Shown piece after piece: positions 2 through 20,122 of a stretch of 31,808 bases of DNA. Every line of letters starts with the position of its first letter. Positions within the stretch are counted from its first letter, which is position 1. Source of the stretch: a virus; IMG/VR virus record IMGVR_UViG_3300031951_000779, positions 1 to 31,808 of that record. One strand, written 5' to 3'. The notes beneath the pieces were generated by a model. The model searched no databases and had not been told where the DNA came from. It worked only from the letters and a program-made list of their open reading frames with translations. Made by a program: the position numbers and the translations under genes.

Positions 2-1030
2 GAGCGCAAGACGTTCGAGTTCGCACCCGGGGCGTTGTACCACCTCAAGATGCCCGGACCGGCGGGCGTACAGGCGCAGTGGGGCTTTCCGCCCATCACC
101 AGCGCCATCAAGAACTTCCTGTTCACGGCGGTGCTTCGTCGCGCGAACGAGGCGATTGCGCTGGAGCACATCACCCCTTTCAGGATCATTCACCCTCTGG
201 CCGCGAGCGGCGCGGGCGACCCCCTGACGACGATTCCTCTGGATCGGTGGAAGTCGGAGATGGAGCGCAACATGCGGCTCTTCCGACGCGACCCGCTGCG
301 GATCCAGTTTTCACCCGTGCCCGTCGGTGTGCAGAACATCGGCGGCGAAGGTCGCGCCCTTCTCACGCTGGGCGAGCTTCAGGAGGCCGAGAAGTCGATC
401 GTGCTGTCCCTGGGCGTTCCCATGGAATTCCTCTCTGGCGGGCTCGGACAGACGCGCGGCGAGATCACCCTGAGGATGATCGAGAACCAGCTGCAGACGC
501 ACATCGAAAACCTCAACGCCTTGGTGCAATGGGTGGAACGCAAGGTCGCCTCCTTCATGTCCTGGGCGTCGATTCGCATGCGTCTCGCCGACTTCAAGAT
601 GATCGACGACGTCGAAAACAAGCAGCTCAAGATTCAGCTGTGGCAGAGCCAGCTCCTGTCCAACACCACCATGGCGGAGATGCTGGACGTCGACCTCGAC
701 CACGAGCGCAAGCAGCGGCGCGAAGACGCGCTCGCCGACGCGCGCTCGGAACAAGAGACCTCCGTCGCGCTTCAAAAGCTGCAGCAGTCGATCTCGACGC
801 AAGCACAGCAGCAGGCCCTGCAAAACCAAGGGGGGCTGGCCTACGACCAACAGCAGATCCTTGCCAAAGCGCAGCCGATCGCCGAAGAGATGGCGGGGTA
901 CGACGCGGGCACGCGGCGCTCGCGGCTCGACTCTCTCAAAGGCGAGGACTTTGTCATGTACTGCATGACAAAAGAACTGCTGGAGCAGATGCAGCAGGAC
1001 CAAACTGCCGCGATGAAGGCGCAGGGCTGA
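2..1030 (+). CDS. Portal protein (5' end outside window)
   Basis: The reading frame is open from base 2 to the stop at 1030, so this is the C-terminal part (about 342 residues) of a longer gene; the TTG at 35 is not taken as the start. The protein forms the dodecameric ring at the capsid vertex through which DNA is packaged and to which the tail attaches. What is seen: an aromatic/proline stretch (GFPPITSAIKNFLF) followed by RRANEAIALEHITPFRIIHP, then a GVPMEFLSGG loop followed by a long helical segment (about residues 155-215) and a Gln-rich charged C-terminus. This order resembles the stem, clip and crown parts of myovirus portals. The identification rests on family resemblance and on its place upstream of protease and capsid genes. 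It is followed one base later by the next ATG, suggesting co-translation. Confidence 0.78.
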   Translation, partial: ERKTFEFAPGALYHLKMPGPAGVQAQWGFPPITSAIKNFLFTAVLRRANEAIALEHITPFRIIHPLAASGAGDPLTTIPLDRWKSEMERNMRLFRRDPLRIQFSPVPVGVQNIGGEGRALLTLGELQEAEKSIVLSLGVPMEFLSGGLGQTRGEITLRMIENQLQTHIENLNALVQWVERKVASFMSWASIRMRLADFKMIDDVENKQLKIQLWQSQLLSNTTMAEMLDVDLDHERKQRREDALADARSEQETSVALQKLQQSISTQAQQQALQNQGGLAYDQQQILAKAQPIAEEMAGYDAGTRRSRLDSLKGEDFVMYCMTKELLEQMQQDQTAAMKAQG

Positions 1031-1031
1031 G

Positions 1032-1442
1032 ATGGAAGACTGGATGGATCGGCAGCAAGCAGCGAAGGAAGAGGCCCAGAGGGGCCCACGCGTGGGGTTC
1101 ACCGAACCCTCCGAAGAGCAGCCCCGCCGCCTGCGCGTCGCGCACGAAACCTACTCGATCTTTCGGCCCTGGCAGGGATGCTCCCGCTGCAAGGACATGC
1201 TGAAGGATCAACCGGAGCTGCTGCCGGAGCTCGGCGACTTCGTATGCCCGCACACGCGGCACACCGAGTACATCACGCTGATCAACCGCTTGCGCAACGC
1301 AGGAGCAGCGGGGCCCTGGAAGCTCCAAGCACGCGAGTTCTCAAATGAACGCGGCGAGATCTACGTGACGATCGCGTGGGAAGAGCCCGAAGGGCCTATC
1401 AGCGAAACGAAGGCTCGGCCCAAGGGCGTACCGCGCTTGTAG
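1032..1442 (+). CDS. Small Cys/His protein downstream of portal, unknown function
   Basis: A 136-residue protein that I do not recognise. The ATG lies one base after the portal stop codon, so translation is probably coupled. The middle holds CSRCKD (about residues 55-60) and CPHTRHTE (about 80-87). This CxxC plus C-x-H-x2-H spacing could bind a zinc ion, though not in a classical family arrangement I can name. The N-terminus is strongly charged, and the C-terminus ends in a basic, proline-containing tail. The last codons form the left arm of an 11-bp inverted repeat (1419-1457). Its position suggests a head or packaging accessory protein; this is inference from context only. Confidence 0.6.
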   Translation: MEDWMDRQQAAKEEAQRGPRVGFTEPSEEQPRRLRVAHETYSIFRPWQGCSRCKDMLKDQPELLPELGDFVCPHTRHTEYITLINRLRNAGAAGPWKLQAREFSNERGEIYVTIAWEEPEGPISETKARPKGVPRL

Positions 1443-1601: not shown

Positions 1602-4600
1602 ATGAACGAGTTGACGCCGGTTCTGACGAGCGCGACAACGCTGCGTCAAAAGCTGCACGAAAAGACGACGCAAGCGCTGACCTCGGCGTTTCCACTCGAC
1701 CTCAAGGGCCGAACGCTGGAACTGAAAGACGTCCACGTGCAGGCCCAGAATTTCGGGCCCACGGACGAGTACGACGCGATCACCAAGGGCTCCTCGCTCA
1801 ATGAGCCGGTCAAGGGGACGCTGGTTCTGAAGGACTCCTCGGGGCGGGTCGTCGACGAAGCGAAGAACTTCACGCTGGCGCACATCCCGTACCTGACCGC
1901 GCGCCACACGTTGATCGCCGACGGCAACGAGTATCAAGTCGCGAATCAGCTTCGGCGCAAGCCCGGCGTGTATACGCAGCGCGCCGACAATGGCGAGCTG
2001 AAGACCGTCTTCAACCTCGGGCGTGGGCGCAATTTCGACCTCGCCTTCAACCCCGACAAGGGGACGTTCCATCTTCAGTACGGGACTTCGAACCTTCCTC
2101 TTTACGCCGTATTGCGCGGGCTCGGAGTGGAGCACAGCCAGATCGCCAAGCATCTCGGAGCGGGCGTCGCAAGCGCCAACGAAGAAGAGCACGGGCATCA
2201 GACCGTGCAGACGATCGGCAAGTTGTACGCGAAGCTGGAACATCCTGCGGTGATGGATCCGAAGGCGCCGCACGAGACGAAGATCGAAGCGATTCGAAAG
2301 CGCTACGACCAATCGACGCTCGATCCCGAGGTCACGTCAGTTACCCTCGGCGGCCCTCACTCGAAGGTGACGCCTGACGCGCTGCTCGTCGCCGCGAAGA
2401 AGATGCTCGACGTGCACGCCGGGAAGACGCCCGTCGACGACACGGACTCGCTGCGGTTCAAGACCTTTCACGCCCTCGACGACTTTGTGTCGGAGCGCAT
2501 TCGCCTGACCGCGCGCCAGTGGGCACCCAAGGCGAAGATGGCGCTGACGGGCAAGACCGTGATCCGCGATGCGTTGAAGCCCGCGCCGTTCTCGGACTCG
2601 ATTCGAAAGTTCTTGACCACGTCCTCGCTCTCCAGCGTGCCCACGGGCATCAACCCGATGGAGATCATCGACCACGCGGTGAAGGTCACGAGCTTGGGCG
2701 AGGGCGGTATCCCATCGGATCGCGCGATTCCGATGGACGCGCGCATGATCCACAACACGCACTTCGGAGCGCTCGACCCGATCCGTACGCCGGAGTCGAA
2801 CCACTCCGGCGTGGACATTCGCGCCACGATCGCTGCGCACCGCGACGACAAGGGGAACTTGTACACGGTGCTGCACAACGTGAAGACGAACAAGGACGAG
2901 TTCGTCCGCGCGGGAGACTTGAACAAGTACGTCGTGGCGTTTCCGCACCAAGAGCTCAGGGGGCTCGTCGACGCTTTCGTCGACGGCCACCAGACGCGCG
3001 TGATCGCGTCGCGTGTGACGCATCAGCTGGGACACGTCAAGCACCTCTACTCCCCCGCGACGTCGCTGATCCCCATGATTCACTCGATTCAGGGGAATCG
3101 AGCCATCATGGGTTCGAAGATGGGCACGCAAGCGTTGCCTCTCGTCGAGCGCGAGGCGCCCCTTGTTCAAGTCAGGTCCCATCACCCGGACGGCCACTCC
3201 TTCGAGACGCTGTACGGGCACATGATCGTGCCGACGGCTTCGATCGGAGGCACGGTGGCGAAGGTCGACGACCAGTTCGTATACATCCGCCCGCACGCAG
3301 AGAAGCGCAGCGCAGCAGGGGACGCAGCTCTCGTCAAAGTCCCCTACTTCAAGAAGTTCCCCTTCCCCTCGAAGACGTTTCTGAACCACGCCGTCGAAGT
3401 GAAGGCCGGGGACAAGGTCGAAGAGGGGCAGCGTCTCGCGGAGTCGAACTACACCCGCAACGGCGTCCTCGCGCTCGGCAAGAATCTGCGCGTCGGCTAC
3501 TTGCCGTACTACGGGTACAACTCGAACGACGCCGTGGTGATCTCCGCTGCGGCCTCGCAGAAGTTGACCAGCGAGCACATGTACCGCGAGATCTTCGAGC
3601 TGGGCGGCGGCATCGAGCTCAATCGCGCCAAGCACCAGCTGTACTACGGCGCGAAGTACCCCGCGTCGATGTACGCCAAGCTCGACGACAGCGGCGTGAT
3701 CAAGAAGGGCACGAAGCTCGACCCCAAGGATCTCCTCGTCGCTGGGCTGATGAGGCAGGCCATCACCGGCACCGACGCGATGCTGGGACGCATCGGCAAA
3801 GCGCTGGTGAAGCCCTTCAAGGACATCGCGCTGGTCTGGGACCACGGCGTGCCCGGTGAAGTCATTGACGTCGTGCGCGTGAGCGGTCGGATCACGATCT
3901 TGGTCCAGACGCGCGAAGCTATGCAAGTTGGCGACAAGCTCGCAGGGCGCTACGGCAACAAGGGCGTCGTCGCGAAGATCGTCCCAGACCACGAGATGCT
4001 GCGTGACGAGCAGGGGAACCCCCTCGATCTGCTCCTGACGTCGGCGGGCGTCATCTCCCGCATCAATCCCGCGCAGGTCATCGAGACCGCTGTCTCCAAG
4101 GTGGCGGATAAGACGGGCGTACCCATCGTCTACGACAACGCGGCGGGGCATAACGCCGTAAAGTGGGCGCGGAACTTGATGCGAGAGCACGGCGTCAAGG
4201 ACAAGGAAGAGCTCTATGACCCGCTGCTTCAACGCAAGGTCGTTGGCGCTGACGGCAAGGGCGTGCTCGTCGGGAAGCAGTACATCTACAAGCTGTTCAA
4301 GAGCACGGACACCAACTTCGCCGGGCACGGCGTCGGCCCGTACGACCTGAACGAGCAGCCGCTCAAGACCGGAGGCGATGAGAGCGCCAAGGGCCTCGGC
4401 AAGATGGAGTTCGACGCGCTCCTGGCGCACAACGCCCGAAACTTCCTGCGGGAAGCAGCGACCGTACGGGGTCAGAAGAACGACGAGTACTGGAAGGCTG
4501 TGCAGACGGGGCTCCCCCTGCCTACGCCCAAGCCTTCGTTCGCGTTCAACAAGTTTCTCGCGCTCCTCGAAGGCGCCGGAGTCAAGGTGGACAAGCGCGG

Positions 4601-6143
4601 ATCGAAGTTCGCGCTGCTGCCTATGACCGACAAGGACATCCTCGCGCGAAGTGCAGGGGCGATCGATCACGGCGGAACCGTGCGCGCCAAGGACCTCAAG
4701 CCCGAAACGGGAGGTCTGTTTGACCCGCGCAAGACCGGAGGCGCGCAAGGCACGCTCTACAGCCACATCGTCTTGCACGAGCCCGTGCCTAACCCCGTGT
4801 TCGAGGAGCCCATTCGGCGCCTCCTCGGCATGACGGAGCCAAAGTTCAGGGAGGCGCTGCGCGACAAGGGCGGTGCGTGGTTCCGTGCTGAGCTGTCGCG
4901 CCTCGACGTGCCCGCGAAGCTGCGGGAGCTGCGCGAGCAGCTGAAGAACGCCAAGGGCCCCGTGCTCAACGACGTCGTGAAGCAGATCAAGTACTTGGAG
5001 GCGCTGCAGAAGCACAAGCTGAATCCCGGCGACGCATACGTCATGCAGAACGTCCCCGTCATTCCGCCGATGTTCCGCCCGATTCAGCCCGGAGTTCGTG
5101 ACCCCTCGCAGCTCATGGTGGCGGACGCGAACAAGCTGTACGGACAGCTCTTCGACTCCGATAAGACGCTGCGAACGACGGCTGTTGAATCCGATCGCGG
5201 CAAGCACCGCCAGGACCTCTACGAGAAGGTTGAGGAGCTGTACGGAACGGCGCTTCCACGGGACCCGAAGCTTCAGCAGCAGAAGGTCAAGGGGATGCTG
5301 GCGACCGTCGCAGGCGTCGGTACGCCCAAAGGCGGCTTTTTTCAGCGTAAGCTCATGCGCCGCACGCAGGATGTGTCGGGGCGCGGAACCGCTGTGCCCG
5401 ATTCAAACCTCGGCATGGACGAGGTCGGCATCCCCGAACCGATGTTGTGGCAGTCGCTCGACAAGCTCATCGTCGCGCGCCTGATCCGAACGGGCTACCC
5501 CGCGCTCGCTGCCCGCGAGCTCGTGAACAATCGGGCTCCCGCCGCACGTGACGCCATGCTCGCAGAGACGCGCGAGCGCCCCGCGATCATCAACCGCGCC
5601 CCGACGCTCCACCGAGGGTCCATCGTCGCAGCCTACGCGAAGCCCGTGCCCGGCAAGACGATCCGCGTCTCGGCCTTCGCCGAGAAGGGAATGAACCTCG
5701 ACTACGACGGAGACACCCTGCAGGTTCACTTCCCGATCGGAGCTGAATCAGTTCAAGACGCGAAGCAGATGACGTTGAGCAACATGTTGCTCAGCGATCA
5801 GCAGCGAAACCGCTTGATGGTGTTCCCACAGCACGAAGCCATCATCGCGTTCACGCTCGCGGCCAAGCACGTGACGCCGACGGGACCTGTCCGCACGTTC
5901 AAAACGCGCGAAGAGGCTCTCGGTGCGTACCGCCGAGGCGAGCTCAAGCTGTCGGACTCCATCGAGATCGAGAATGAAAAGCGCGCCGAAAGCGAAGAGC
6001 TGTATGATGGATACGGCGAAGGCGACCCTCTCCATGCCTCGTTCTATCCCGTGGAGCCCGACGAAGCGCTATCCTATTTCCCGCCGGAGCTGCTGACGGG
6101 CGAAGGTGACGACGAGGACCCCGATGTTCGACTTCTTGAATGA
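1602..6143 (+). CDS. Fused RNA polymerase beta / beta' N-terminal half
   Basis: A 1513-residue catalytic subunit of a multisubunit DNA-dependent RNA polymerase. Beta-type blocks come first: IPYLTARHTLIADGNEYQV (about 94-112), VTSLGEGG followed by the THFGALDPIRTPES rifampicin-region block (about 361-400), the GYNSNDAVVIS block (about 640), GDKLAGRYGNKGV with the two active-centre lysines (about 776-788), and KGLGKMEFDALLAH (about 929-942). From about residue 1000 it becomes beta': KPETGGLFD, the VPVIPPMFRPIQPG block, VSGRG, NRAPTLHRG (about 1331), and the catalytic LDYDGD at 1366-1371 with Asp 1367, 1369 and 1371, matching NADFDGD of cellular enzymes. The beta part (about 980 residues) is much shorter than the E. 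coli subunit (1342). The beta' N-terminal zinc domain is absent. The protein stops before the bridge helix; the rest of beta' is at 7702-9501. Start at ATG 1602: no Shine-Dalgarno, with a TAGAAT box nine bases upstream. No alpha, omega or sigma gene is visible here. Confidence 0.95.
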   Translation: MNELTPVLTSATTLRQKLHEKTTQALTSAFPLDLKGRTLELKDVHVQAQNFGPTDEYDAITKGSSLNEPVKGTLVLKDSSGRVVDEAKNFTLAHIPYLTARHTLIADGNEYQVANQLRRKPGVYTQRADNGELKTVFNLGRGRNFDLAFNPDKGTFHLQYGTSNLPLYAVLRGLGVEHSQIAKHLGAGVASANEEEHGHQTVQTIGKLYAKLEHPAVMDPKAPHETKIEAIRKRYDQSTLDPEVTSVTLGGPHSKVTPDALLVAAKKMLDVHAGKTPVDDTDSLRFKTFHALDDFVSERIRLTARQWAPKAKMALTGKTVIRDALKPAPFSDSIRKFLTTSSLSSVPTGINPMEIIDHAVKVTSLGEGGIPSDRAIPMDARMIHNTHFGALDPIRTPESNHSGVDIRATIAAHRDDKGNLYTVLHNVKTNKDEFVRAGDLNKYVVAFPHQELRGLVDAFVDGHQTRVIASRVTHQLGHVKHLYSPATSLIPMIHSIQGNRAIMGSKMGTQALPLVEREAPLVQVRSHHPDGHSFETLYGHMIVPTASIGGTVAKVDDQFVYIRPHAEKRSAAGDAALVKVPYFKKFPFPSKTFLNHAVEVKAGDKVEEGQRLAESNYTRNGVLALGKNLRVGYLPYYGYNSNDAVVISAAASQKLTSEHMYREIFELGGGIELNRAKHQLYYGAKYPASMYAKLDDSGVIKKGTKLDPKDLLVAGLMRQAITGTDAMLGRIGKALVKPFKDIALVWDHGVPGEVIDVVRVSGRITILVQTREAMQVGDKLAGRYGNKGVVAKIVPDHEMLRDEQGNPLDLLLTSAGVISRINPAQVIETAVSKVADKTGVPIVYDNAAGHNAVKWARNLMREHGVKDKEELYDPLLQRKVVGADGKGVLVGKQYIYKLFKSTDTNFAGHGVGPYDLNEQPLKTGGDESAKGLGKMEFDALLAHNARNFLREAATVRGQKNDEYWKAVQTGLPLPTPKPSFAFNKFLALLEGAGVKVDKRGSKFALLPMTDKDILARSAGAIDHGGTVRAKDLKPETGGLFDPRKTGGAQGTLYSHIVLHEPVPNPVFEEPIRRLLGMTEPKFREALRDKGGAWFRAELSRLDVPAKLRELREQLKNAKGPVLNDVVKQIKYLEALQKHKLNPGDAYVMQNVPVIPPMFRPIQPGVRDPSQLMVADANKLYGQLFDSDKTLRTTAVESDRGKHRQDLYEKVEELYGTALPRDPKLQQQKVKGMLATVAGVGTPKGGFFQRKLMRRTQDVSGRGTAVPDSNLGMDEVGIPEPMLWQSLDKLIVARLIRTGYPALAARELVNNRAPAARDAMLAETRERPAIINRAPTLHRGSIVAAYAKPVPGKTIRVSAFAEKGMNLDYDGDTLQVHFPIGAESVQDAKQMTLSNMLLSDQQRNRLMVFPQHEAIIAFTLAAKHVTPTGPVRTFKTREEALGAYRRGELKLSDSIEIENEKRAESEELYDGYGEGDPLHASFYPVEPDEALSYFPPELLTGEGDDEDPDVRLLE

Positions 6144-6597
6144 GCTGCTGAGCAAAAGCCCTCAGGCCCCCGAGAAGGACGGCGCCGAACACCTCGCGTG
6201 CCTTCAATCGATCCTGACGAAGAAGTACGCATTGCTCCTCGCGTACATCTCGTACGGGGATCAGCTGCGCGCCTTTGGTCGTGACGGTGTCTACGAGCAC
6301 TTCCAAGAACACATCAAGGAAGAGCGGGACACGATTTACCAGCTCAACAAGAAGATCACTGCGCTCGGCGGAGACGCCGTCGTCAGCGTCGACCCTGTGC
6401 CCTCCGTGCCTCTGAACCAGCCGCGCGCCGTCTTCGAAGCCCTCCTGGCGATGGAACAAGCGTCGGTCGCGCTGTGGTCTGAACTGTTCCGCAACACCGA
6501 AGACGATGTCGCGCTGAACGCCATGGCGCAGAACGGGGCTCTCGCGGATCAGCAGCACGCCGACGACATGCGCCGCTACCTTCGGAGTGAGTGCTAA
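6124..6597 (+). CDS. Ferritin-like four-helix protein
   Basis: A 157-residue, mostly helical protein resembling the ferritin/bacterioferritin/Dps superfamily. What is seen: a first helix LTKKYALLLAYISYGDQLRA, a second with EHIKEERDTIYQLNKKITAL ending in GG, a third with FEALLAMEQASVALWSELFR, and a fourth ending ADQQHADDMRRYL. The E-H-x2-E-E cluster, the glutamate in the third helix and the final Q-x2-H resemble diiron ligands, so iron or another metal could be bound; whether the site is complete is uncertain. ATG 6124 is chosen over GTG 6106 because GAGGA lies about six bases upstream. The gene overlaps the RNAP gene by 20 bp and its stop overlaps the next ATG by one base, so it is co-expressed with the polymerase. 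In a virion-gene cluster it may be a structural or minor virion protein rather than an iron store. Confidence 0.7.
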   Translation: MFDFLNELLSKSPQAPEKDGAEHLACLQSILTKKYALLLAYISYGDQLRAFGRDGVYEHFQEHIKEERDTIYQLNKKITALGGDAVVSVDPVPSVPLNQPRAVFEALLAMEQASVALWSELFRNTEDDVALNAMAQNGALADQQHADDMRRYLRSEC

Positions 6598-6974
6598 TGC
6601 CTAACCTGCAGGACGTAGCGCGCGGCATCACGACGCGCCTGAAGAAGCGCCAGCGCGGATTCCACTTCGAGCGGGAGCCCGGCTTTTACGGCGTAACCAA
6701 GGGCTTTGGCGACGCCGCGAAGCTGAAGGTCGCCAGCGAGGCCCGCGCGCGAGCGATTCGAAAGGTGGCGGAGAAGTACGCGCTGCTTGATGAATCGGGC
6801 GAGCCCATCGAGGCGTTGGCGAAGCTGTTCGCCGAGAGCAACTTCGGCTACGGGGACGAACCTGTGGCCGCGAAGCGCACCGGGGACCCCATTTGGGGTC
6901 CCTCGATGGGAACGCCGAACGAACCCGGAGACCGTAACGGGCTGAGTCGCGGCCTTTCGTACGGAGGAGTCTGA
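6597..6974 (+). CDS. Small basic protein in RNAP operon, unknown
   Basis: A 125-residue protein with no family I recognise. The N-terminal half is basic (TTRLKKRQRGFHFEREPGFYG), the middle is helical with many Arg/Lys/Ala (SEARARAIRKVAEKYALL), and the C-terminus is rich in Gly, Pro and Asn. ATG 6597 is used because it overlaps the previous stop as TAATG; the GTG at 6591 would lie inside the upstream gene. A - strand match to the AACGCCGTAAA word falls inside the gene (6685-6694). It lies between the two RNAP genes, so it could be an RNAP partner or a minor virion protein, but nothing in its sequence decides this. Confidence 0.6.
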   Translation: MPNLQDVARGITTRLKKRQRGFHFEREPGFYGVTKGFGDAAKLKVASEARARAIRKVAEKYALLDESGEPIEALAKLFAESNFGYGDEPVAAKRTGDPIWGPSMGTPNEPGDRNGLSRGLSYGGV

Positions 6975-7654
6975 TGATCTCGAATGAAGCCTACGCCGAA
7001 GCACAAGTGCGCGGCGTGCAGAAGACGCTGGCCTTCTACGGCCTGGAGAAGGCAGCCGCTGCGGGGGTGCTCGCAACGCTGGGCCGCGCCGGGTCGCGCG
7101 CGCTGAGCGGCGGCATGAAGGCCTATCAACACGGCGGCGGCAGCATGATGCAGAACGTCGGCAAAGGCATCGCCTCCGGCGCCAAGAGCTTCCAACGCGC
7201 GGGGGGTCTCCCTGCTGCGGGGAAGGCGCTGGGGGCCACCGCTGCGGTGGGCGCTGGAGCGTACGGCGCCGGTCGCGCGTTTGGCGCAGGACAAGCAGGT
7301 GGCCAGAAGCAGGCGAGCGACGCAGACACGCTCGGTATCACTGCTGACGACGCCGAAGGTATCGCGCGAACAATCGGTATGGGTTTCATCCCCTTCGGCA
7401 ACACCGCGCAGGGCGTTCACCGTGGGTCTCTCCACGGGTACAACGAACCTTTTCAAGGCGCGGTGCGCATGCTCGGGGGGACCATGGCCGGAGGGATGGT
7501 CGGAGGCGCCGCAGGCGCAGTCATCGGAAAGGGGCTCGGCATGAATAGGGGCGCCGTTCACGGCCTCAATGGGGCGCTGACCCTCCTTGGAAGTGGCGTC
7601 GGGGGGCACTTGGCGACGCGCAAGTACCTCAAGCCCCCGGAGGAACAGGGCTAA
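6974..7654 (+). CDS. Glycine-zipper (Gly/Ala-rich) putative virion protein
   Basis: A 226-residue protein dominated by Gly and Ala. Two long low-complexity hydrophobic stretches are seen: about residues 75-105 (LGATAAVGAGAYGAGRAFGAG) and about 160-205, where GxxxG spacing is dense (LGGTMAGGMVGGAAGAVIGKG). Such glycine zippers pack membrane helices or insert into membranes. The N-terminus carries a short amphipathic helix (VQKTLAFYGLEKAAAAG). ACGGAGGAGT provides a Shine-Dalgarno before ATG 6974, which overlaps the previous stop (TGATG). It sits directly before the beta' C-terminal gene. It resembles in style the proteins at 17525 and 29126. A minor virion or membrane-penetrating role is inference. 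Confidence 0.62.
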   Translation: MISNEAYAEAQVRGVQKTLAFYGLEKAAAAGVLATLGRAGSRALSGGMKAYQHGGGSMMQNVGKGIASGAKSFQRAGGLPAAGKALGATAAVGAGAYGAGRAFGAGQAGGQKQASDADTLGITADDAEGIARTIGMGFIPFGNTAQGVHRGSLHGYNEPFQGAVRMLGGTMAGGMVGGAAGAVIGKGLGMNRGAVHGLNGALTLLGSGVGGHLATRKYLKPPEEQG

Positions 7655-7701
7655 AGTCCCCCCCTCACTCCCTTTAACCCGCGCGCGGCTCTGGTGCCTT
7701 C

Positions 7702-9501
7702 ATGCCCACGACTGTCGGACAATTCCTGATCAATGACGTGATGCCCGCCGGATACAAAATCACCGGGCAACTCACGAACAAGGCGTTACACGACCACGTC
7801 GTGGGTCTCGCGAAAGCGGATCCGCAAAAGTACGTCTCGACGGTGCTCGCGCTGAAGCGCCGAGGCGACGAGATCGCGACGCTCGAAGGCATCTCGGTCG
7901 GCCTCGACGACATCGAACCCGACTACGCCGCCCGTGACGCGATCGTTCAGCCTGCGCTCGCAAAGCTGGAGAAGCTGAAGGATTCAGCAGCGCGTGAACG
8001 CGTGATCGTGGAGACGCAGGAAAAGCTCCTCGCGCACACGAAGCAGCACCCGGGGTCAATGACGCACATGGCGCTCTCGGGCGCGCGTGGAAATCCCGCC
8101 CAGCTCATGAAAATCGTCGCCACCCCGCTGGCGACGGTCCATCCGAAGCACGGCGTACTGCATCAGTTGATCGACCGTTCGTATTCCGAAGGGTTGACCC
8201 CCGCGCAGTACTGGATGACTGGGCCCGAGATTCGAGAGAACGAGGTCAAGGCTCGAATCTCCGTCTCCGAACCAGGAGAGATGGCCAAAGTCCTCGTCGC
8301 CAACATGATCTCGAAGGTCGTGACGACACAGGATTGCGGCACGATGAACGGCGTAAAGATGACGATCGACGACGGACACGTCCTCGATCGCTACACGCAG
8401 GCGGATCACGGCTTGCCACGAAACACGCTCGTAACGCCGCAGCTTGTACAACAGCTGAAGATCAACGGCGTAAACACCCTTCTCGTGCGATCCCCGATGA
8501 CGTGTACGGCGCAACACGGCGTCTGCCAGAGGTGCCAGGGCCACAACGAGAAGGGCCAGCCTCACTCCATTGGCATGACAGTGGGTGTTCGCGCCGCCCA
8601 AGCGATGGCCGAGCCTTTGACGCAGATGGCGTTGTCGTCCAGGCACGGAACGCTCACCGTGAAAGCGACAGACAAGTCTCCGACGGGGCTCAAGGGCGTC
8701 CGCCAACTACTGGAGGTCCCTGCAGCGTTCCGCCACGAAGCGGTGCTCGCGCCGGAGCATGGGTCCGTGACGAAGATCGAGAAGGCCCCGCAGGGTGGGC
8801 AGTACCTCTACCTCGGCACGAAGAAGATCTACGTGAGCCCCGACTTGACGCTGCGGACCAAAGTGGGTGACGTTGTAGAGCGCGGTGACGCGTTGACGGA
8901 CGGCGTCCCGCATCCCGCCAAGGTCGTAGGCTACAAGGGCATCGGAGCGGGGCGCGCGCACTTCGTCGACGCGCTGCACCACTTGTACAAGAGTGAAGGC
9001 ATCAATCTCGATCGACGGCACCTGGAGTTGCTTGCGAAAAGCGAGATCAACCACGTGAAGTTGCTCGACGCCGATCCCCATCACCCTGAGCTGCTCAAGG
9101 GCGACGTCATCAATTACAACGCGTTCCGCGACGCGTACCACGCGAGCGCTACACGTGTTCCAATCGCCGACGCCGTCGGACAACGGCTCGGGCAAGAAGT
9201 GCTGCACCATACCGTCGGTACGCCCGTCACGCCCTCGCTCGTGAAGGAACTTCGAGGCCACGGTGTGACGGAGGTCTACGTCAATCGCAGCATGCCCCCT
9301 GTGGAGTTCGTCATGAAGCCCTTCACGATGAATCCGCTGTTGGAAAAGGACTGGATGGCGCGTCTCGCGCACCGCTACTTGAAGAGCACGATTCAAGAAG
9401 CTGCACACTTCGGGGACCTCGCCGATATTCACAGCACTCATCCCGTCCCTGCGTATGCTTTTGGCGCGGAGCTACACCATGGAGCCGGCGGTGCATTCTA
9501 A
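7702..9501 (+). CDS. RNA polymerase beta' C-terminal half
   Basis: A 599-residue protein that continues beta' where the 1602-6143 fusion stops. It begins with TTVGQFLINDVMPAG, then EGISVGLDDIEPD (matching the GISIGIDD block of cellular beta'), then MALSGARGNPAQL (the SGARG block). A bridge-helix region precedes DCGT at about 211-214. All four zinc cysteines of the second beta' zinc site are present: C212, C268, C275 and C278 (TCTAQHGVCQRC). The trigger-loop region follows: GVRAAQAMAEPLTQMALSSRHG (about 295-316), keeping the catalytic-position histidine. A clamp/jaw-like C-terminus ends near residue 590. The split position resembles the rpoC1/rpoC2 break of cyanobacteria and plastids. ATG 7702 has no clear Shine-Dalgarno, and only a weak TTTAACCC lies upstream. 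It must assemble with the fusion protein to form an active enzyme. Confidence 0.94.
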   Translation: MPTTVGQFLINDVMPAGYKITGQLTNKALHDHVVGLAKADPQKYVSTVLALKRRGDEIATLEGISVGLDDIEPDYAARDAIVQPALAKLEKLKDSAARERVIVETQEKLLAHTKQHPGSMTHMALSGARGNPAQLMKIVATPLATVHPKHGVLHQLIDRSYSEGLTPAQYWMTGPEIRENEVKARISVSEPGEMAKVLVANMISKVVTTQDCGTMNGVKMTIDDGHVLDRYTQADHGLPRNTLVTPQLVQQLKINGVNTLLVRSPMTCTAQHGVCQRCQGHNEKGQPHSIGMTVGVRAAQAMAEPLTQMALSSRHGTLTVKATDKSPTGLKGVRQLLEVPAAFRHEAVLAPEHGSVTKIEKAPQGGQYLYLGTKKIYVSPDLTLRTKVGDVVERGDALTDGVPHPAKVVGYKGIGAGRAHFVDALHHLYKSEGINLDRRHLELLAKSEINHVKLLDADPHHPELLKGDVINYNAFRDAYHASATRVPIADAVGQRLGQEVLHHTVGTPVTPSLVKELRGHGVTEVYVNRSMPPVEFVMKPFTMNPLLEKDWMARLAHRYLKSTIQEAAHFGDLADIHSTHPVPAYAFGAELHHGAGGAF

Positions 9502-10123: not shown

Positions 10124-10126
10124 ACT
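10121..10126 (+). promoter_or_regulatory. TANNNT box (TAAACT)
   Basis: TAAACT overlaps the stop of the upstream gene and ends 18 bases before ATG 10145. GGAG of the Shine-Dalgarno lies near the predicted start of transcription. The same 18-base gap is seen before 20148 and 21722. The overlap with the stop codon weakens this instance. Confidence 0.3.
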
Positions 10127-10144
10127 ACGCACTGGAGCCAAGAA

Positions 10145-11749: not shown

Positions 11750-11781
11750 GCGCATCTCGCACATCGCTGCGCTGAGGTGTA

Positions 11782-11818
11782 GAACGCCTGTTGCCGTATA
11801 CTTCGGCAACAGGCGTTC
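11782..11818 (+). terminator. Strong intrinsic terminator with TATACTT loop
   Basis: GAACGCCTGTTGCCG (11782-11796) and CGGCAACAGGCGTTC (11804-11818) form a perfect 15-bp stem with a seven-base loop TATACTT, followed by GCCTTTTG. This is the best rho-independent terminator in the window and closes the transcript of the 534-residue protein. The loop itself contains TATACT, a match to the TANNNT boxes seen before other genes. Confidence 0.8.
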
Positions 11819-11840
11819 GCCTTTTGAGGAGACACAGACG

Positions 11841-14435
11841 ATGACCATGAACGGCTTCCCGCTCTCGCAGTCACCACGGACGCAGGGCTTCGCGCAGCCC
11901 TCAAGTCCTGAGGACGAGGAGGAGCTTTTCTCGAAGGGCTTTTCGGACCTCGCGTACCGCGCCTTCCAGAAGACGCATCCCGAGCTGTACGGCGATCTCG
12001 TGTCCTTTCGCGTCCTTGCCACGGACGCGCAGAGCGGCGAAGGCGTGGGAGCGTTCATCCTCAAGCGCGCCGCCGAAGTGCTGTTCGTCCCGGCGGTGAT
12101 CGCGGACAACGCCGTAAAGCCGTTGGACATGGTCTACGTGCGATCGAAGGACCGCTTCTATCCGCTCACCCCGGAGTGGATCGAGAAGGCTACGTCGGGG
12201 GGCGTCAGCGCCTTGGGTCGCGGCATCGAGCCGCCCAAGGACCTGAACACCGACGTGGACATCCGCAACGTCGTCGTGCCGCCCACGACAGGCCGCTACA
12301 GCTACGCGTCGGAGTTCGACGCTGCGTCGATCAGCGACGATGAACTGTGGAACGTCTACCGCGCGGCGAACGACAACGAGAAGCGCGCGGCTGACGACAT
12401 GCCCCTCGTCTTCCCTGAGGTGGTGCGGCGTATGCCGAACACCATCAAGACGGCGTACGCGACGTGGCTGGCGAAGCGTCCCCGCTACTTGCGCAAGATG
12501 GCGGAGATCTACAGCGCTGGCGTTCTTCGCGACGCGTTCACCCTCATCGAAGCGCCACACGCGAAGACGGCCGCAGACTTCCGCAAGGAAGTCCCCCTCA
12601 AGCACGACGTCTACCTCGCAGTCGCGGGCATGCCCCTACAGGAGATCCGCAAGGAGCTCGCGCCGGGCGACATGCCCGAAGCCTACAAGGCGCTGCGTAC
12701 GCACGGGTTCTACGTCAAAGACCGTAGAACCGCGCCCCTCAACGGCATCACCGTCGAAGACGAAGAGGCGCTCGCGCTGACGGCGCCGGAAGCCCCTGGC
12801 ATCTATCGCATCTACCTCTCAGACGGAACCAACACCAAGGCGTTGATCATTCCGCAACCCGTCCAGGTCGCGCGCCCCCGAACGGATCACCAGGAGATGG
12901 TGTCAGGGGACTACAGCCGCCGCGAAGTCAACGACGTGCCGTCCCCGTACTCCACGGGGAAGCGCTACCTCGTGCTTCTCCCGGATGGGCGCGGCGGCTG
13001 CGTGTCCGAACTCGTGGCGGAGCCCGTGACGAATGAGTCGTTCGACTCAGTCACGTCGATGCTCAAGTCGATGACCCGCGAGACGCCGCAAGGCAAGCAG
13101 CGGGGCGTCCTGATCTCCGCCGACAACCTCACGCTGCGCGCGACGGAGCCTTTCTTCGCGGAGAAGCCCACGTCGCGCGGCGACATGGTGTCTTTCGTCG
13201 CGGGCTACGACATGACGGCCGTGATCTCCAAGAAGATGACCGGCTCGAAGATCGTCCGACCCGTGAATCAACCCATCATGGTCTTCCCCCAGAGCTATCG
13301 CTGGTTCCCCATCAAGGAAGACCTGTCGGATCGAGACGTGCTGGCGCGCCCGGAGCTGATCGGAAGGTCGATCGAAGCGAAGATCGAAAAGACCGGCGCA
13401 GCCCGCATCAAGGTCGCACGGGATCACGACGGGTTTCGCGTCGGCGAGCGCCGCGAGAAGCTCTCTGCGCTGGAAGCCGTCGTCAAGGTCGCCAACGTGT
13501 ACGGCGTATCCGTTCCCGACGCCTCGCGCGTGGTCGAAGCCGTCGCGAACGGCCTCACTGTCCGAGCCTGGATCACGCCGAAGACGGCGGCGGCGGCGGC
13601 CGAAGGACAGGATCCAAACGGAATGACTCCGATGGATCCGAACGCGATGGCCGCGATGCAGGCGCCGCCCCCGCCCCCGCCAACGGGAATCGACCTCGCG
13701 ATCTCCGAAAAGCTTCAGATGATCCAGGCGCAGCGCGCGGCGCTGGAGCAGATGGAACAGATGCTCGGCGAGCTTCAGGGAAGGGCGCAGGGCATCGATC
13801 AAGGCGGCGGAGCGATGGCCGCGCCCCAAGGCGCAGCTGGCATGATGGCTGGACCGGCGCAAGACGTCATGGGACAGCCCGCGATGGCTCCCGTGCCTGG
13901 AATGAGCCCCCAGGCGCCTCCCGCTGGCGGTGGAATGCCGCAGGGCAGCGATCCGAACGCCATGGCTCCCCAGGGTGGCGACCCGAACGCGATGGCCCCC
14001 CAGGGCGGCGATCCGAACGCGATGGCGATGCAGGGCGAACCCCCGCCTCCGCCGCCGCAGCCGGTGATGCCGAAGGAGCCCAACCCCGCGCTCTTCGCCG
14101 AGCAGGTCGCACCTCAGTTCCTCGATCAAGCGATGGAGCTGGATCAGGCGGGGGTCTTCGACGCTTCGGCCGTCGCCTCGCTGGCGAATGTTCGAAGCAT
14201 CCGAGACTTGCTCCAGAACTACACCCCCTCCCTGGACAACGCGCTCGATCGGCTGGGCCGCACGCTCCTGCTGCTCTACGTCAAGAGCAAGCAGATCCGC
14301 GAGCGGATCGGCGAAGAGGCCTTCACATCGCTGGAACAAGTCGTGCGGGACGTGTTCCGAATGCTGGGCGACGCTGTGCTGTCGTTGGAGCAATACGGCG
14401 ATCAGCTGTTGCCTGCTGGAGCGCGGTCGGCATAA
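11841..14435 (+). CDS. Large putative virion structural protein with Pro/Gln/Met repeats
   Basis: An 864-residue protein not recognised by family. Residues 1-560 look globular with alternating beta-rich parts; two KTA motifs occur (IKTAYA, AKTAAD). A low-complexity region from about 580 to 745 follows: an Ala/Glu stretch after PKTAAAAAEG, DPNGM and DPNAM repeats, a run of Pro, a predicted coiled coil (SEKLQMIQAQRAALEQMEQM), then three exact 30-bp tandem units encoding QGGDPNAMAP-type decapeptides and a second Pro run. The last 115 residues are helical (NPALFAEQVAPQFLDQAMEL onward). Such a flexible Pro/Gln linker between domains is usual in large virion proteins. A GAGGAG Shine-Dalgarno precedes ATG 11841. 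It is the first gene after the terminator, so it has its own promoter or depends on read-through. Confidence 0.65.
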   Translation: MTMNGFPLSQSPRTQGFAQPSSPEDEEELFSKGFSDLAYRAFQKTHPELYGDLVSFRVLATDAQSGEGVGAFILKRAAEVLFVPAVIADNAVKPLDMVYVRSKDRFYPLTPEWIEKATSGGVSALGRGIEPPKDLNTDVDIRNVVVPPTTGRYSYASEFDAASISDDELWNVYRAANDNEKRAADDMPLVFPEVVRRMPNTIKTAYATWLAKRPRYLRKMAEIYSAGVLRDAFTLIEAPHAKTAADFRKEVPLKHDVYLAVAGMPLQEIRKELAPGDMPEAYKALRTHGFYVKDRRTAPLNGITVEDEEALALTAPEAPGIYRIYLSDGTNTKALIIPQPVQVARPRTDHQEMVSGDYSRREVNDVPSPYSTGKRYLVLLPDGRGGCVSELVAEPVTNESFDSVTSMLKSMTRETPQGKQRGVLISADNLTLRATEPFFAEKPTSRGDMVSFVAGYDMTAVISKKMTGSKIVRPVNQPIMVFPQSYRWFPIKEDLSDRDVLARPELIGRSIEAKIEKTGAARIKVARDHDGFRVGERREKLSALEAVVKVANVYGVSVPDASRVVEAVANGLTVRAWITPKTAAAAAEGQDPNGMTPMDPNAMAAMQAPPPPPPTGIDLAISEKLQMIQAQRAALEQMEQMLGELQGRAQGIDQGGGAMAAPQGAAGMMAGPAQDVMGQPAMAPVPGMSPQAPPAGGGMPQGSDPNAMAPQGGDPNAMAPQGGDPNAMAMQGEPPPPPPQPVMPKEPNPALFAEQVAPQFLDQAMELDQAGVFDASAVASLANVRSIRDLLQNYTPSLDNALDRLGRTLLLLYVKSKQIRERIGEEAFTSLEQVVRDVFRMLGDAVLSLEQYGDQLLPAGARSA
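13941..14030 (+). repeat. Three tandem 30-bp units
   Basis: Units start at 13941, 13971 and 14001, each beginning CAGGG(C/T) and containing GA(T/C)CCGAACGC, with a partial fourth unit at 14031. They are in frame and encode Q-G-(S/G)-D-P-N-A-M-A-(P/M). Related DPNGM and DPNAM words occur upstream near 13612-13650. The copy number may vary between relatives by slippage or recombination. Confidence 0.85.
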
Positions 14436-14446
14436 TCAGTGAGACC

Positions 14447-15151: not shown

Positions 15152-15159
15152 GCGCCCCC

Positions 15160-15165
15160 TACCTT
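15160..15165 (+). promoter_or_regulatory. TANNNT box (TACCTT)
   Basis: TACCTT ends 12 bases before ATG 15178. GAGG directly follows the box and could be a Shine-Dalgarno, so this instance is intermediate between the leaderless and leadered types. Confidence 0.3.
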
Positions 15166-15177
15166 TGAGGCACGCCG

Positions 15178-16029
15178 ATGGCACAATGGGACTCCACCGA
15201 CTTCGACCGCGAGGCGACCGCTATCGCTCGTGCTTTCTGGGCTGGCCGCGAGCAGAACGGGGCCCCGCTCAATGAGCTGGCCACGAAGACGGCGCGCGAC
15301 AACGGCCTCAACCCCGAACAGATTCGGCGCCTCTGCCGCAGCGCGAACACGAAAGCGTTCGAGCAGAAGCACGCCGCGCTGAAGGGAGAGGACGATCGAA
15401 CCCCCAACTTCGAGCTGTCGGATCCCGAAGCGGTGATCTCCAGTCTTCATCAAGCGGTCACCGCCGCGCACACCAAGCAAGCAGCGGCCGAATACCCCGA
15501 CCTTCCGAACGAGTACGCGCCGCCCGTAGACGCGTCGCTCTTTGCTCGGGAGAAAGTCGCGGCTCTCGAAGGCGAGATCAACGGCTACTTGAGCCCTCGG
15601 CGCTCGCCCCTCGTGGAGCTGCGCCGTGCTGAGAAGCTCGCTGCGGATCTGGCCGTGGAGCGGCACGCCTTGAACTTCGCGTGGGATGACGCGCTCGACG
15701 GCATCGCGGCTCAGTCGCGATTCCAAAACTGGAATCACGACGACTTCGAGAAGAACGCCGTGGCGCTGTTTGGCGCGGACGTGCTACCCGAACTCAACGC
15801 GGTGCGCCATCGTTGCCGCTTGAGTGCGCTGGGCAACGGTGCGGACGAAGCTGAGGTTTCAGCGAAGCTCGCGTCGCTGCAGCACACATGGGTGGGGGTG
15901 CCGGACGCTCTCACCGCGCGCCTGAAGATCGCCTTGGACGTCCGCACAACGTTCAAGGCGCTCGTCGCGCAACAGGAAGCTGTCGCGGCCAAGATCGCGG
16001 GGCTCAAGAAGGTCGTGCGCCATGGGTAA
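15178..16029 (+). CDS. Unknown charged helical protein
   Basis: A 283-residue protein rich in Ala, Glu, Arg and Leu and mostly helical, with no family I can name. Notable are a first helix DREATAIARAFWAGREQNG (about 9-27), a central LRRAEKLAADLAVERHALNF stretch (about 149-168) and a C-terminal helix ending in basic residues. KQAAAE and REKVAALEG fit the loose xKxA motif common in this region. It overlaps the next gene by eight bases, indicating an operon. A structural or scaffolding-type role is possible from composition and location alone. Confidence 0.58.
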   Translation: MAQWDSTDFDREATAIARAFWAGREQNGAPLNELATKTARDNGLNPEQIRRLCRSANTKAFEQKHAALKGEDDRTPNFELSDPEAVISSLHQAVTAAHTKQAAAEYPDLPNEYAPPVDASLFAREKVAALEGEINGYLSPRRSPLVELRRAEKLAADLAVERHALNFAWDDALDGIAAQSRFQNWNHDDFEKNAVALFGADVLPELNAVRHRCRLSALGNGADEAEVSAKLASLQHTWVGVPDALTARLKIALDVRTTFKALVAQQEAVAAKIAGLKKVVRHG

Positions 16030-18214: not shown

Positions 18215-20122
18215 ATGGACAAGCTTCTAGAGCTGGACGACCGCTTCCCCAAGACCGGGGAGCCCACGGTGCAGTTGGTGGCGTGGAGGGGCGCTCGCGG
18301 CGGGCTCAGCATCGAGAAGCGCGCGTTCACCGAGAGTCGTTCCCCTCTCTACGACTTCCTCTCCACCGTCCAGCCCGAGAGCGGCGTCTCGTACATCCTC
18401 GTCAACGCGCTGGGCGCGTACGAGTACTACGACGACAACCGCAACGGAGACGGCTTCCCGAACGCCCCCTACAAGGTCGGGGAGCTCGCTGCGTGTGGCC
18501 ACCCAGAGTGCACGGCGGCGCTCGACGGCTGGATCTCTGAGCCCGAGACGCTTCGCCACCACTACCCGTCCTTCGAAAAGCATGGCGGGATCTACAAGCA
18601 CCACGTCAACAAAGACCCCACGAAGTCGCTCGGGTACATCAACAAGGCGATTCTCAACCCGTACATGCACCGCGTCGAGCTGCTGCTGAAGCTCGTCAAC
18701 GGGCGCGACCCTGAGATCGCGCAGCGAATCGGTGATGGCGACTTCCCTGCGGTCTCGATGGGTTGCCACGTGCGCTGGGATGTCTGCACCATCTGCGGCC
18801 ATCGCGCTCCCACCCGCGCACAGTACTGCGAACACGCCCTGCGGATGCTGCGTCGCATTCTTCCTGATGGAAGAAAGGTCGCCGTCCTCAATCCCAGCCC
18901 GAAGTTCTTCGATATCAGTTTCGTGTTTCGACCCGCAGACCCCACCGGGTGGATGCTCAAGAAGGTCGCGGGGGAAACGGCCTTCCGGTACAGCGCCGAC
19001 CTCGGCGAGCAGCTTCGCGCATACGAGGCGCGTGCAGTGGAGATCCGTAGCCGCTGCGAGAAGACCGCTGCGGCACTCGGCACCGCCTACGGCGTCCAAG
19101 CATCGTCGATCGTGCAAGAGTGGCCGCAGCTGTCTGCCGCCGTGTACGCGACTGCAAAGACGGCCGGAGTGACAAGCACGCTCGCGACGCTCGCTGCGAA
19201 CGGCGTGGTGCTCGCTACAGGAGAAGTGATCGACCTGTTCGCCAAGGCTGCGAACGTCACCGCGTCCAGCTCGGACCTCGATCGCCTCGTCGCGCTCGAA
19301 CCCGTGCTGACGGAGATCATCGCGCGGTACCCCGACGTAGAAACGAAGCTGGGGTCCTTGGTCGCGTTGCGTGTTGACGCCGTAAACGACGACGTGGCTC
19401 GTCCGTTGTCCTCGTGGATCGAGAAGCGCGGGGGCATCTACGACTACGTCCGGCAGCAGGCGTACAGCCCCACGGACTTGTTCCAGCTTCCGATTGGCCC
19501 TGGGGCGCACTACCGCGCGACCGAGCCGGCGAAGACGGACGTGCTGTCGCTGTCGGACCCCTACACGGGGACTCAGTACCAAACGACACGGGGCGCCGCG
19601 ATGGCGGCGCACAACGAAGATGCCAAAGCGCAGCTCGGCTCAACCGCGTTGCTCGGCGCCTTGTACGCTGGGGGCCTGCGCGCGGCGCTCGGTCCAGGTA
19701 GCGGCGTGTGGTCGCTACCGATCGGGCTCGCTGCCGGATACGCCACCCAGCGCGCGCTGCGAAAGCAGTTTCGCCCCCATCGATACAATCGCTACGTCAC
19801 GGATCAGGGCCTACCCGTTTCAGGCGGTACCGAATTCGTGAAGGTCTCAGGGTACGACCGCCCCTCTCGGGCCGACGTCGTGCACAAGGCGGCGTTCGAT
19901 CTGATCGAGCGCGTCGGCGCCCCCGACTACAACGCCCTGCTCAAAAAGGTCGCGCGCGAAAACGGCGCAGCGTATGCACAGTGGCTGGAGACAACGCCGC
20001 TGCATCAAAAGGTCGCCACGCTCGTGTCGGGCGCGGAGATCGAGGCTCACGACGTCCAAGAAGCCCCTGGCTTGAACGTCGCGCGCCTCGTCGAAAACAT
20101 CAGCCGCCTCGTTTGGCGCTGA
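18215..20122 (+). CDS. Putative prohead maturation protease with long C-terminal extension
   Basis: A 635-residue protein. The first 250 residues look like a phage capsid-maturation protease: a DDNRNGDGFP loop (about 70-79), then HHVNKDPTKSLGYI with candidate catalytic His 129/130, then DFPAVSMGC with candidate nucleophile Ser 181. This His-then-Ser order with VSxG fits the prohead protease superfamily. Just after it, C184, C191, C194, C205 and H207 (DVCTICGHRAP, then QYCEH) form a likely zinc site. Residues 250-635 are a long extension: helical with CEKTAAALG and AKTAGVTS motifs, a Gly/Ala hydrophobic stretch (about 470-515) and a charged end. The extension may act as a core/scaffold domain removed on maturation. 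The gene lies upstream of the capsid gene, as protease genes usually do. ATG 18215 has no Shine-Dalgarno. Confidence 0.72.
   Translation: MDKLLELDDRFPKTGEPTVQLVAWRGARGGLSIEKRAFTESRSPLYDFLSTVQPESGVSYILVNALGAYEYYDDNRNGDGFPNAPYKVGELAACGHPECTAALDGWISEPETLRHHYPSFEKHGGIYKHHVNKDPTKSLGYINKAILNPYMHRVELLLKLVNGRDPEIAQRIGDGDFPAVSMGCHVRWDVCTICGHRAPTRAQYCEHALRMLRRILPDGRKVAVLNPSPKFFDISFVFRPADPTGWMLKKVAGETAFRYSADLGEQLRAYEARAVEIRSRCEKTAAALGTAYGVQASSIVQEWPQLSAAVYATAKTAGVTSTLATLAANGVVLATGEVIDLFAKAANVTASSSDLDRLVALEPVLTEIIARYPDVETKLGSLVALRVDAVNDDVARPLSSWIEKRGGIYDYVRQQAYSPTDLFQLPIGPGAHYRATEPAKTDVLSLSDPYTGTQYQTTRGAAMAAHNEDAKAQLGSTALLGALYAGGLRAALGPGSGVWSLPIGLAAGYATQRALRKQFRPHRYNRYVTDQGLPVSGGTEFVKVSGYDRPSRADVVHKAAFDLIERVGAPDYNALLKKVARENGAAYAQWLETTPLHQKVATLVSGAEIEAHDVQEAPGLNVARLVENISRLVWR

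Follow-up and report, generated by a model that had tools for sequence, protein, structure and literature searches.

The beta and beta' subunits are covalently joined in the cellular rpoBC of Helicobacter and Wolbachia, in which beta' is complete and alpha is present, and both barrels lie in one chain in the crAss-type and YonO phage polymerases, of which the crAss RNA polymerase (RNAP) is packaged in the virion. The crAss enzyme has no recognisable similarity to bacterial beta/beta' profiles (PMC7481178). The mReC group was defined by COG0085 and COG0086 matches of at least 800 aa and by the motif NADxDGD; its capsid proteins all belong to PF07068 (Gp23-type), and the main text makes no mention of gene fusions or splits within the group (PMC7481178). 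For split phage RNAPs, one proposal reads the shared beta' cut as a possible sign of cyanobacterial ancestry (PMC7598289), and another regards these enzymes as pre-LUCA remnants that did not arise by splitting (PMC7824862). The RNAP chains of Salmonella phage Arash are annotated only as beta and beta', and the accessible part of that report mentions neither a fusion nor a shifted cut (PMC10585845). No described phage rpoB-rpoC fusion was found in the open literature searched.

Here we analyzed a window of 31,808 nt of viral DNA, by which we mean the whole stretch studied. We regard it as likely that its two polymerase genes together specify the core of one phage RNAP of the bacterial multisubunit type that derives from an ancestral fusion, was later re-cut, is packaged in the virion and transcribes early genes.

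Architecture of the polymerase genes and their neighbourhood

The features of the window, with the evidence for each, are the following:
2..1030, +, portal protein, C-terminal part, truncated by the contig edge (homology)
1032..1442, +, small ORF between portal and polymerase (close relatives)
1602..6143, +, RNAP chain 1, beta fused to beta'N, 1513 aa (Pfam, Arash gp206 match, 120-genome survey)
3930..3965, +, beta active-site loop GDKLAGRYGNKG; K779 and K787 correspond to E. coli K1065 and K1073 (alignment)
4578..4610, +, beta/beta' junction (alignment with bacterial RpoB/RpoC)
4740..4755, +, site of the gap left by the missing beta' N-terminal zinc-binding domain, E. coli C70-C88 (alignment)
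5694..5714, +, beta' catalytic motif NLDYDGD (alignment)
5970..6140, +, chain 1 C-terminal extension, predicted disordered (pLDDT <50 for the last 54 residues)
6106..6597, +, ferritin-like protein between the two polymerase genes (PF00210, 2.6e-13)
6591..7654, +, two small lineage-specific ORFs (6591-6974, 6974-7654) in the polymerase gap (relatives' loci)
7702..9501, +, RNAP chain 2, beta'C, 599 aa (Pfam, AlphaFold)
8200..8307, +, predicted bridge helix, chain 2 residues 167-202 (structure prediction)
8335..8535, +, beta' Zn2 cysteines C212, C268, C275 and C278 (alignment)
8644..8646, +, trigger-loop histidine H315, E. coli H936 (alignment)
11841..14435, +, homologue of Arash virion protein gp218 (26.7%, E=2e-15)
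15178..16029, +, homologue of Arash virion protein gp220 (homology; gp220 in Arash virion mass spectrometry)
18215..20122, +, predicted prohead protease, Arash gp222 homologue (phrog_18299 head maturation protease, 9e-8; 36.7%, E=4e-43)
22280..23203, +, major capsid protein (39% to Arash gp226, E=2e-64)
25881..29120, +, likely tail sheath (C-terminal 240 aa match a 706-aa protein of phage D69, E=6e-37)
29691..30476, +, likely tail tube (30.7% to the D69 ORF beside its likely sheath, E=2e-30)
30491..31807, +, baseplate hub/spike (gp5-like), cut by the contig end (phrog_430, 1e-7; Gp5_trimer_C, 1e-4)

An earlier note on this DNA had read the two large ORFs as beta-beta'N and beta'C, and Pfam confirmed both assignments at the coordinates that it gave. 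Chain 1 matches Rpb2_2, Rpb2_3, Rpb2_6 (8e-39) and Rpb1_2 (2e-17) in a single uninterrupted frame and is 34.7% identical to Arash gp206 over 96%. The beta loop and the beta' DxDGD motif do occur in this one chain, as the note had stated, and the remaining beta' is indeed in the second gene, which matches Rpb1_5 (9e-16) and, weakly, Rpb1_4. Chain 2 starts at a TTxGxxLxNxxLP element (E. coli beta' ~570) and is 31% identical to Arash gp216; its AlphaFold model (pLDDT 85.5) has Thermus beta' as the best PDB match (E=3e-30).

The marks of the superfamily, namely the beta DPBB lysines, the beta' DxDGD, the trigger-loop histidine and the bridge helix, are all present. The equivalents of E. coli beta K1065 and K1073, beta' D460 and D462 and trigger-loop H936 are invariant in 125 of 125 fused-clade phage rows, and beta' D464 is kept in all covering rows except one; the bridge-helix R780 equivalent occurs in 61 of 68 split rows and 57 of 57 one-chain rows. 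At the junction, approximately 8-10 residues stand in place of the beta end and the beta' start. The zinc-binding domain that follows in bacteria is a gap in all 125 fused-clade rows, and its cysteines are retained in 10 of 13 separate-gene phages. The C-terminal extension of chain 1 is missing from most relatives. Both chains are under purifying selection (dN ~0.11, with dS saturated, against relative L009). Some relatives, such as those of the L040 type, carry a pyrophosphatase domain of their own on the polymerase chain.

By homology to Arash, the RNAP genes lie between the portal and major capsid protein genes, in agreement with the virion-gene cluster described in the earlier note. The portal is 28.8% identical to Arash gp204 (E=1e-48) and 30% to the D69 portal (E=1e-54), and the small ORF behind it is conserved at 71% in the L092/L009 contig and at 30-40% in three further relatives (L096, L098 and L040). 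Three non-RNAP ORFs (6106-7654) separate the polymerase genes; the ferritin-like family is found at the equivalent place in 13 relatives. The capsid protein has no PF07068 match, and among isolates it matches only Arash and three Vibrio phages. The product of 25881-29120 is likely the tail sheath, a name suggested by its order and size. Portal, protease, capsid and both RNAP chains are thus homologous to those of Arash and in the same order. Neither a sigma gene nor an Rfam intron was found in the window.

Among 120 distinct relatives, 70 have the split form, 50 have a one-chain beta-beta' of ~2,100 aa and none has the cellular beta|beta' boundary. The same split occurs in the complete genome of the Arash isolate, in three Vibrio phage isolates and in more than 60 metagenome contigs, and hence is not an assembly accident. 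The cut falls between E. coli beta' 551 and ~570 (medians 552 and 570), and the gap between the split genes is never shorter than 638 nt (63 loci). A split intein rejoining beta'N and beta'C was rejected for the clade at large, since most chains end or begin within ~20 residues of the cut and the gaps are at least 638 nt. Two apparent cases of a cellular layout were also discarded: the canonical boundary of L296 came from a Trp-coding TGA within a fused frame, and wastewater records L004/L005 proved to be Bacillota RpoB/RpoC contamination. The portal-RNAP order, which the earlier note had proposed to check in relatives, is conserved, with the portal upstream in 17 of 22 one-chain loci, including the deepest (L294); in the L015/L171 one-chain subclade the RNAP adjoins a primase-helicase instead.

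Each of 18 relatives has one RNAP per genome, with no second RNAP found. In profile searches of 12 relatives, whose records are partly incomplete, neither alpha (PF01193) nor omega (PF01192) was detected (0/12 each), which points to a core-only phage form rather than a cellular-type set. Sigma genes were found in 8 of the 12, and in 8 of 9 split relatives tested; sigma region 2 was not detected in the other four genomes. Several split relatives have their sigma genes ~7-10 kb upstream of the RNAP.

Probable virion packaging and possible role in infection

In Arash virions, mass spectrometry detected the orthologous fusion gp206 with more spectra than any other protein, at 100% coverage and with 128 unique peptides, and placed beta'C gp216 among the top five proteins with 40 unique peptides (PMC10585845). 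Per 100 aa these values correspond to 8.4 and 6.6 unique peptides, beside 9.8 for the capsid protein (30 peptides) and 5.5 for the portal (32 peptides); gp218, which has a homologue in the window, had 36 (PMC10585845). The presence of the same two proteins in Arash particles gives strong, if indirect, support to the packaging proposed in the earlier note, so that the RNAP of the window phage probably accompanies the DNA into the host.

It is doubtful, although worth weighing, that the enzyme is instead made after infection for middle or late genes. Its proximity to the portal would then reflect no more than late expression, and carry-over would account for its detection in Arash particles. The Arash report lists 116 proteins for the preparation, with ribonucleotide reductase, ligases and primase among the replication enzymes, and its authors note that abundant intracellular protein may be carried over (PMC10585845); a single RNAP per genome could also serve every phase. 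However, most replication enzymes in that list have few unique peptides, often 2-3, whereas the fusion chain tops it and beta'C is comparable to capsid and portal. The genes also lie amid virion genes across most of the clade.

Relationships and order of events

Trees inferred under LG+C20 covered phages and sampled bacteria other than Helicobacter and Wolbachia. Phages and cells were separated at 100/100, and the separate-gene phage RNAPs, whose beta' is mostly uncut, were sister to the fused clade. This deep-branching position in tailed phages would also fit plain membership of the window in the mReC lineage (Weinheimer and Aylward 2020), and a one-chain ORF could pass both mReC profile filters, but we consider such membership unlikely. 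Against matches of at least 800 aa, one ORF of the window holds beta plus beta'N and beta'C has 599 aa, as judged from ORF lengths and Pfam rather than with the mReC HMMs. Its motif is NLDYDGD rather than NADxDGD; the motif varies in the clade, with NADFDGD in 33 one-chain forms. PF07068 capsids, universal in mReC, were found in 0 of 18 fused-clade genomes; of the 4 separate-gene genomes, 2 have one, namely L340 and Carin-5. Judged from its genes, the clade is not mReC as defined, differing in capsid, gene layout and motif.

Every bootstrap tree recovered the split clade (support 100/96), which nests within the one-chain forms; the latter never formed a single clade, and the AU test rejected their monophyly (p=7e-5). 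The paraphyly of the one-chain forms is due to L294 and L120, whose branches are fairly long. Since the split clade nests in paraphyletic one-chain forms, the phylogeny shows, for the sequences compared, an ancestral full beta-beta' fusion that later underwent a single cut at the hinge behind the catalytic barrel (E. coli beta' 552-570). The reverse order would make the split ancestral, for instance acquired along with cyanobacterial or phiKZ-type genes, and the one-chain forms products of re-fusion; it draws on the likewise cut beta' of phiKZ/AR9 phages and cyanobacteria (PMC7598289; profile ends). It is very improbable given the bootstrap trees and the AU test, a cyanobacterial cut ~20 residues further on and a sister group with mostly uncut beta'. 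Recent capture of a host rpoBC, which has in its favour nothing beyond recognisable similarity to bacterial beta/beta', can be dismissed: the window RNAP is 24-30% identical to any cellular RpoBC found, and the phylogeny, the check that the earlier note had proposed, shows no nesting in one bacterial clade, so that capture is already refuted within the sampled bacteria. One scan of genome contigs returned only cellular rpoBC and thus no prophage or host link.

By the phylogeny, ancestors joined beta and beta' end to end in a chain of ~2,100 aa, with loss of the beta' N-terminal zinc domain, and one later event cut this chain in the linker after the barrel, a gap that other genes now occupy. 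Chain 1 comprises beta in full together with the catalytic double-psi barrel of beta', and chain 2 the bridge helix, trigger loop and remainder of beta'; chain 2 would dock non-covalently. The covalent joint may substitute for the alpha dimer as assembly platform; recruitment of host alpha could, on the contrary, occur. Both chains, packaged in Arash and presumably in the window phage, would accompany the DNA into the cell and, together with a phage sigma, transcribe phage genes from the onset of infection with no wait for the host polymerase.

The well-supported tree lets the order be read as separate genes, full fusion and one cut at that hinge. Such cuts can therefore be produced within phages and are not necessarily a sign of origin. 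For this lineage at least, the joint would offer a natural explanation for beta/beta' cohesion without alpha, and Arash offers a growable phage for testing packaging, rifampicin resistance and alpha-free activity. The chances seem evenly balanced for the wider picture of a large phage lineage with an alpha-free covalent beta-beta' RNAP in the virion, recut at the cyanobacterial/phiKZ hinge, the shared cut perhaps being convergence rather than ancestry, and with a pyrophosphatase in some members, a self-driving injected polymerase.

Comparison with known systems

Unlike the crAss-type and YonO polymerases, the window RNAP has the full bacterial-type domain set. It shares with cyanobacterial and plastid rpoC1-rpoC2 a beta' cut just after the barrel, but there beta is separate and the cut lies ~20 residues downstream. 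The phiKZ/AR9-type RNAPs likewise have beta' cut after the catalytic barrel, lack alpha and omega and include a virion-packaged form; however, they consist of 4-5 polypeptides with beta cut too, occur as two RNAPs per genome and are extremely divergent (PMC7598289, PMC7824862). In the window beta is uncut and fused to beta'N, and the enzyme aligns readily with those of bacteria; relatives have one RNAP per genome. The N-terminus of AR9 beta'C did not align. The mReC phages resemble the window in having deep-branching bacterial-type beta/beta' in tailed phages (PMC7481178). Two points go beyond the earlier note, namely the origin of the arrangement in a complete beta-beta' fusion with a subsequent cut, and a lineage distinct from the phiKZ/AR9 type and, by published criteria, from mReC.

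The closest likeness is to Arash (gp206 and gp216) and Vibrio phages D69, D148 and D181, which have the same two-chain layout, a portal beside chain 1 and the same capsid family, and which carry sigma genes, the sigma proteins of Arash being gp10 and gp196. The genes in the gap differ between this group and the window. The Arash RNAP is virion-associated (PMC10585845); the window phage shares with Arash both polymerase chains and their place among the virion genes.

Polymerase genes and their surroundings

The window, a complete IMG/VR virus record of 31,808 bases, carries a single block of plus-strand genes. The beta domains and the catalytic NLDYDGD motif of beta' share one frame and the remaining beta' lies in a second gene, as the earlier note had proposed; its placement of the polymerase between portal and capsid genes was also confirmed, and the gene order is that of Salmonella phage Arash and Vibrio phage D69.

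2-1030, +, portal
1602-6143, +, polymerase chain 1: beta domains, then the N-terminal part of beta'
7702-9501, +, polymerase chain 2 (beta'C): remainder of beta'
18215-20122, +, protease
22280-23203, +, capsid protein
right end of the window, +, tail genes

In alignments to Salmonella RpoB and RpoC, beta runs to near its natural C-terminus, followed by 8-10 residues and then beta' from about residue 17-25. The N-terminal zinc domain of beta' is absent from the window fusion, the second zinc site is complete, and the catalytic Asp, Lys and Arg are all retained, as is the trigger-loop His. PDB-sequence profile searches retrieved bacterial beta' at 1e-94 and 1e-106, and when AlphaFold models were compared with the PDB, bacterial beta' gave the top matches for both beta'C (pLDDT 85.5) and the joint plus beta'N (pLDDT 79.7). 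Strong purifying selection (dN 0.11, dS saturated, window versus relative L009) and the conserved catalytic residues indicate an active enzyme. The aligned rifampicin-pocket residues at 516, 531 and 540 are unlike those of E. coli and predict resistance to rifampicin.

A single polymerase set was present in each of 18 genomes. Neither alpha nor omega was detected in any of 12 genomes (controls positive in 13/14 and 14/14 genomes, respectively), and 8 of the 12 gave a match to sigma region 2, with Arash, D69 and the six closest long relatives among them. The covalent joint may take over the role of alpha in holding beta and beta' together.

Nine relatives carry an inorganic pyrophosphatase domain (PF18823, best 1.5e-36; L019 weak) of ~140-230 aa within the beta part, in the loop after window residue ~569 (E. 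coli beta 737-742). Such a polymerase could clear its own by-product; this domain is known from phage polyvalent proteins (PMC5512222).

PF18823 inserts in relatives
L016:12767-13192
L019:11708-12136
L032:11702-12403
L036:4788-5216
L038:11708-12151
L039:11717-12220
L040:11705-12148
L047:11702-12118
L106:4940-5368

The gap between the chain genes holds a ferritin-like protein gene and two small ORFs in the window; among 63 split relatives it spans 638-4770 nt and its gene content varies by subclade. The ferritin-like gene (6106-6597) begins shortly before the fusion gene has ended and is kept at the same position in 13 relatives.

Relatives, branching order and the cut

The IMG/VR profile scan confirmed 454 relatives, part of which may be more distant or cellular, and 80 were kept; the underlying records are mostly incomplete. 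The only isolates that combine a full-length polymerase match with the same capsid are Arash and three Vibrio phages. The 120 distinct complete sets comprised chain 1 plus beta'C (65), the same with an extra break (5) and one continuous beta-beta' chain (50), with the cellular beta|beta' boundary in none. A NADFDGD pattern scan additionally recovered separate-gene phages with the order beta' then beta, in Cobetia phage Carin-5 close to DNA polymerase and sigma genes. Two public 'Staphylococcus' and 'Enterococcus' phage records (L004, L005; OR844998.1, OR846602.1) were rejected as carriers, their rpoB/rpoC being Bacillota contamination of unverified wastewater assemblies. In relative L296 (1-4120) the fused frame reads through TGA at a Trp position of relatives; this phage probably reads TGA as Trp (recoded host).

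In the mixture-model tree (55 sequences, 1475 columns), where cells were bacteria only, mainly CPR, Bacillota and two gammaproteobacteria, phages separated from the sampled cells at 100/100 rather than nesting in one bacterial clade, a nesting that the earlier note had named as refuting its reading. Separate-gene phages branched first (99/99), followed by one-chain forms, and split forms made a single clade (100/96; 200/200 bootstrap trees) whose sister was the one-chain L120 (support 99, quick tree). Constraining one-chain forms to one clade was rejected (AU p=7e-5). A FastTree with 169 taxa was concordant; long branches persist (L294, L168, L120, L356). With cells as the outgroup, the branching order, the single split clade and the rejected constraint thus argue that separate genes were fused and then cut once. 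The joint and the lost zinc domain, common to all one-chain and split members (the fused clade), are in line with a single fusion.

The cut falls between E. coli beta' 551 and ~570, immediately ahead of the TTxGR element. Cyanobacterial rpoC2 starts ~20 residues further on and YerA41 is cut near 622-637; because the positions differ, the three cuts look separate. The break may have been left by a mobile element that entered the fusion gene and was later lost; such elements do enter this gene in relatives, both as inteins and as a homing endonuclease gene. In Vibrio phage D181 (L268:2986-8500) the fusion gene is broken by a homing endonuclease gene, a recent invasion and probably an intron; the gene is intact in its sister D69 (L002:19986-24569), with 99% identical protein.

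Large in-frame inserts occupy conserved sites in other relatives, after window residues 398 (L007, L016, L034, L152), 640 (L120), 780 (L094, L152, L168) and 1370 (L025, L094, L099, L175, L176), two sites falling within active-site motifs (GDK|LAGRYGNKG and DYDG|D). Inserts in L007, L175 and L013 match LAGLIDADG and/or intein-splicing domains, identifying them as inteins; the window copy has no such large insert.

Probable virion packaging

In published Arash virion proteomics, gp206 (orthologue of chain 1) was the most detected protein, with 3516 spectra, 128 unique peptides and full coverage; gp216 (orthologue of chain 2; 1210, 40), helicase gp217 (1148, 38), gp218 (1149, 36) and sigma gp10 (467, 24) were also detected, compared with 877 and 32 for the portal and 1333 and 30 for the capsid, and its authors allow for carry-over (PMC10585845). 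The portal also adjoins the polymerase in most one-chain forms, the deepest included, and packaging is therefore probably ancestral to the fused clade. We consider it likely that the window phage packages its polymerase, as the earlier note had suggested, and reasonably likely that the enzyme transcribes early genes.

The gp217 gene (L003:31154-32572) lies directly 3' of beta'C in Arash, its product being among the best-detected virion proteins (PMC10585845), and a homologue follows the one-chain polymerase of L124; this helicase may work with the polymerase. In the L171/L172/L174/L015 subclade, the one-chain polymerase sits next to a primase-helicase (in L171), its surroundings showed no portal and sigma went undetected in three genomes, possibly reflecting a role for this enzyme outside the virion.

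Across all window proteins, the tripeptide K-[TV]-A occurs several times more often than expected (KTA 16 versus 3.3 expected, KVA 17 versus 3.8); it is concentrated in head-module proteins (6591-22300) and nearly lacking in tail proteins and polymerase. Head proteins of Arash and D69 are likewise enriched, and the tripeptide is possibly a processing or packaging signal.

Comparison with known systems

In the open-access literature we found no phage beta-beta' fusion like this one described, and the Arash genes for both chains are recorded merely as beta and beta'. The published multi-subunit-RNAP-encoding Caudovirales (mReC) were selected by beta and beta' matches of at least 800 aa plus NADxDGD, with a Gp23-type capsid (PMC7481178). 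This capsid was found in 0/18 fused-clade genomes versus 2/4 separate-gene genomes; the published criteria thus set the fused clade apart from mReC through the capsid, and the mReC set may include one-chain members. In phiKZ and AR9 polymerases, unlike the window-type enzyme, beta is also cut and each genome carries two sets (PMC7598289).
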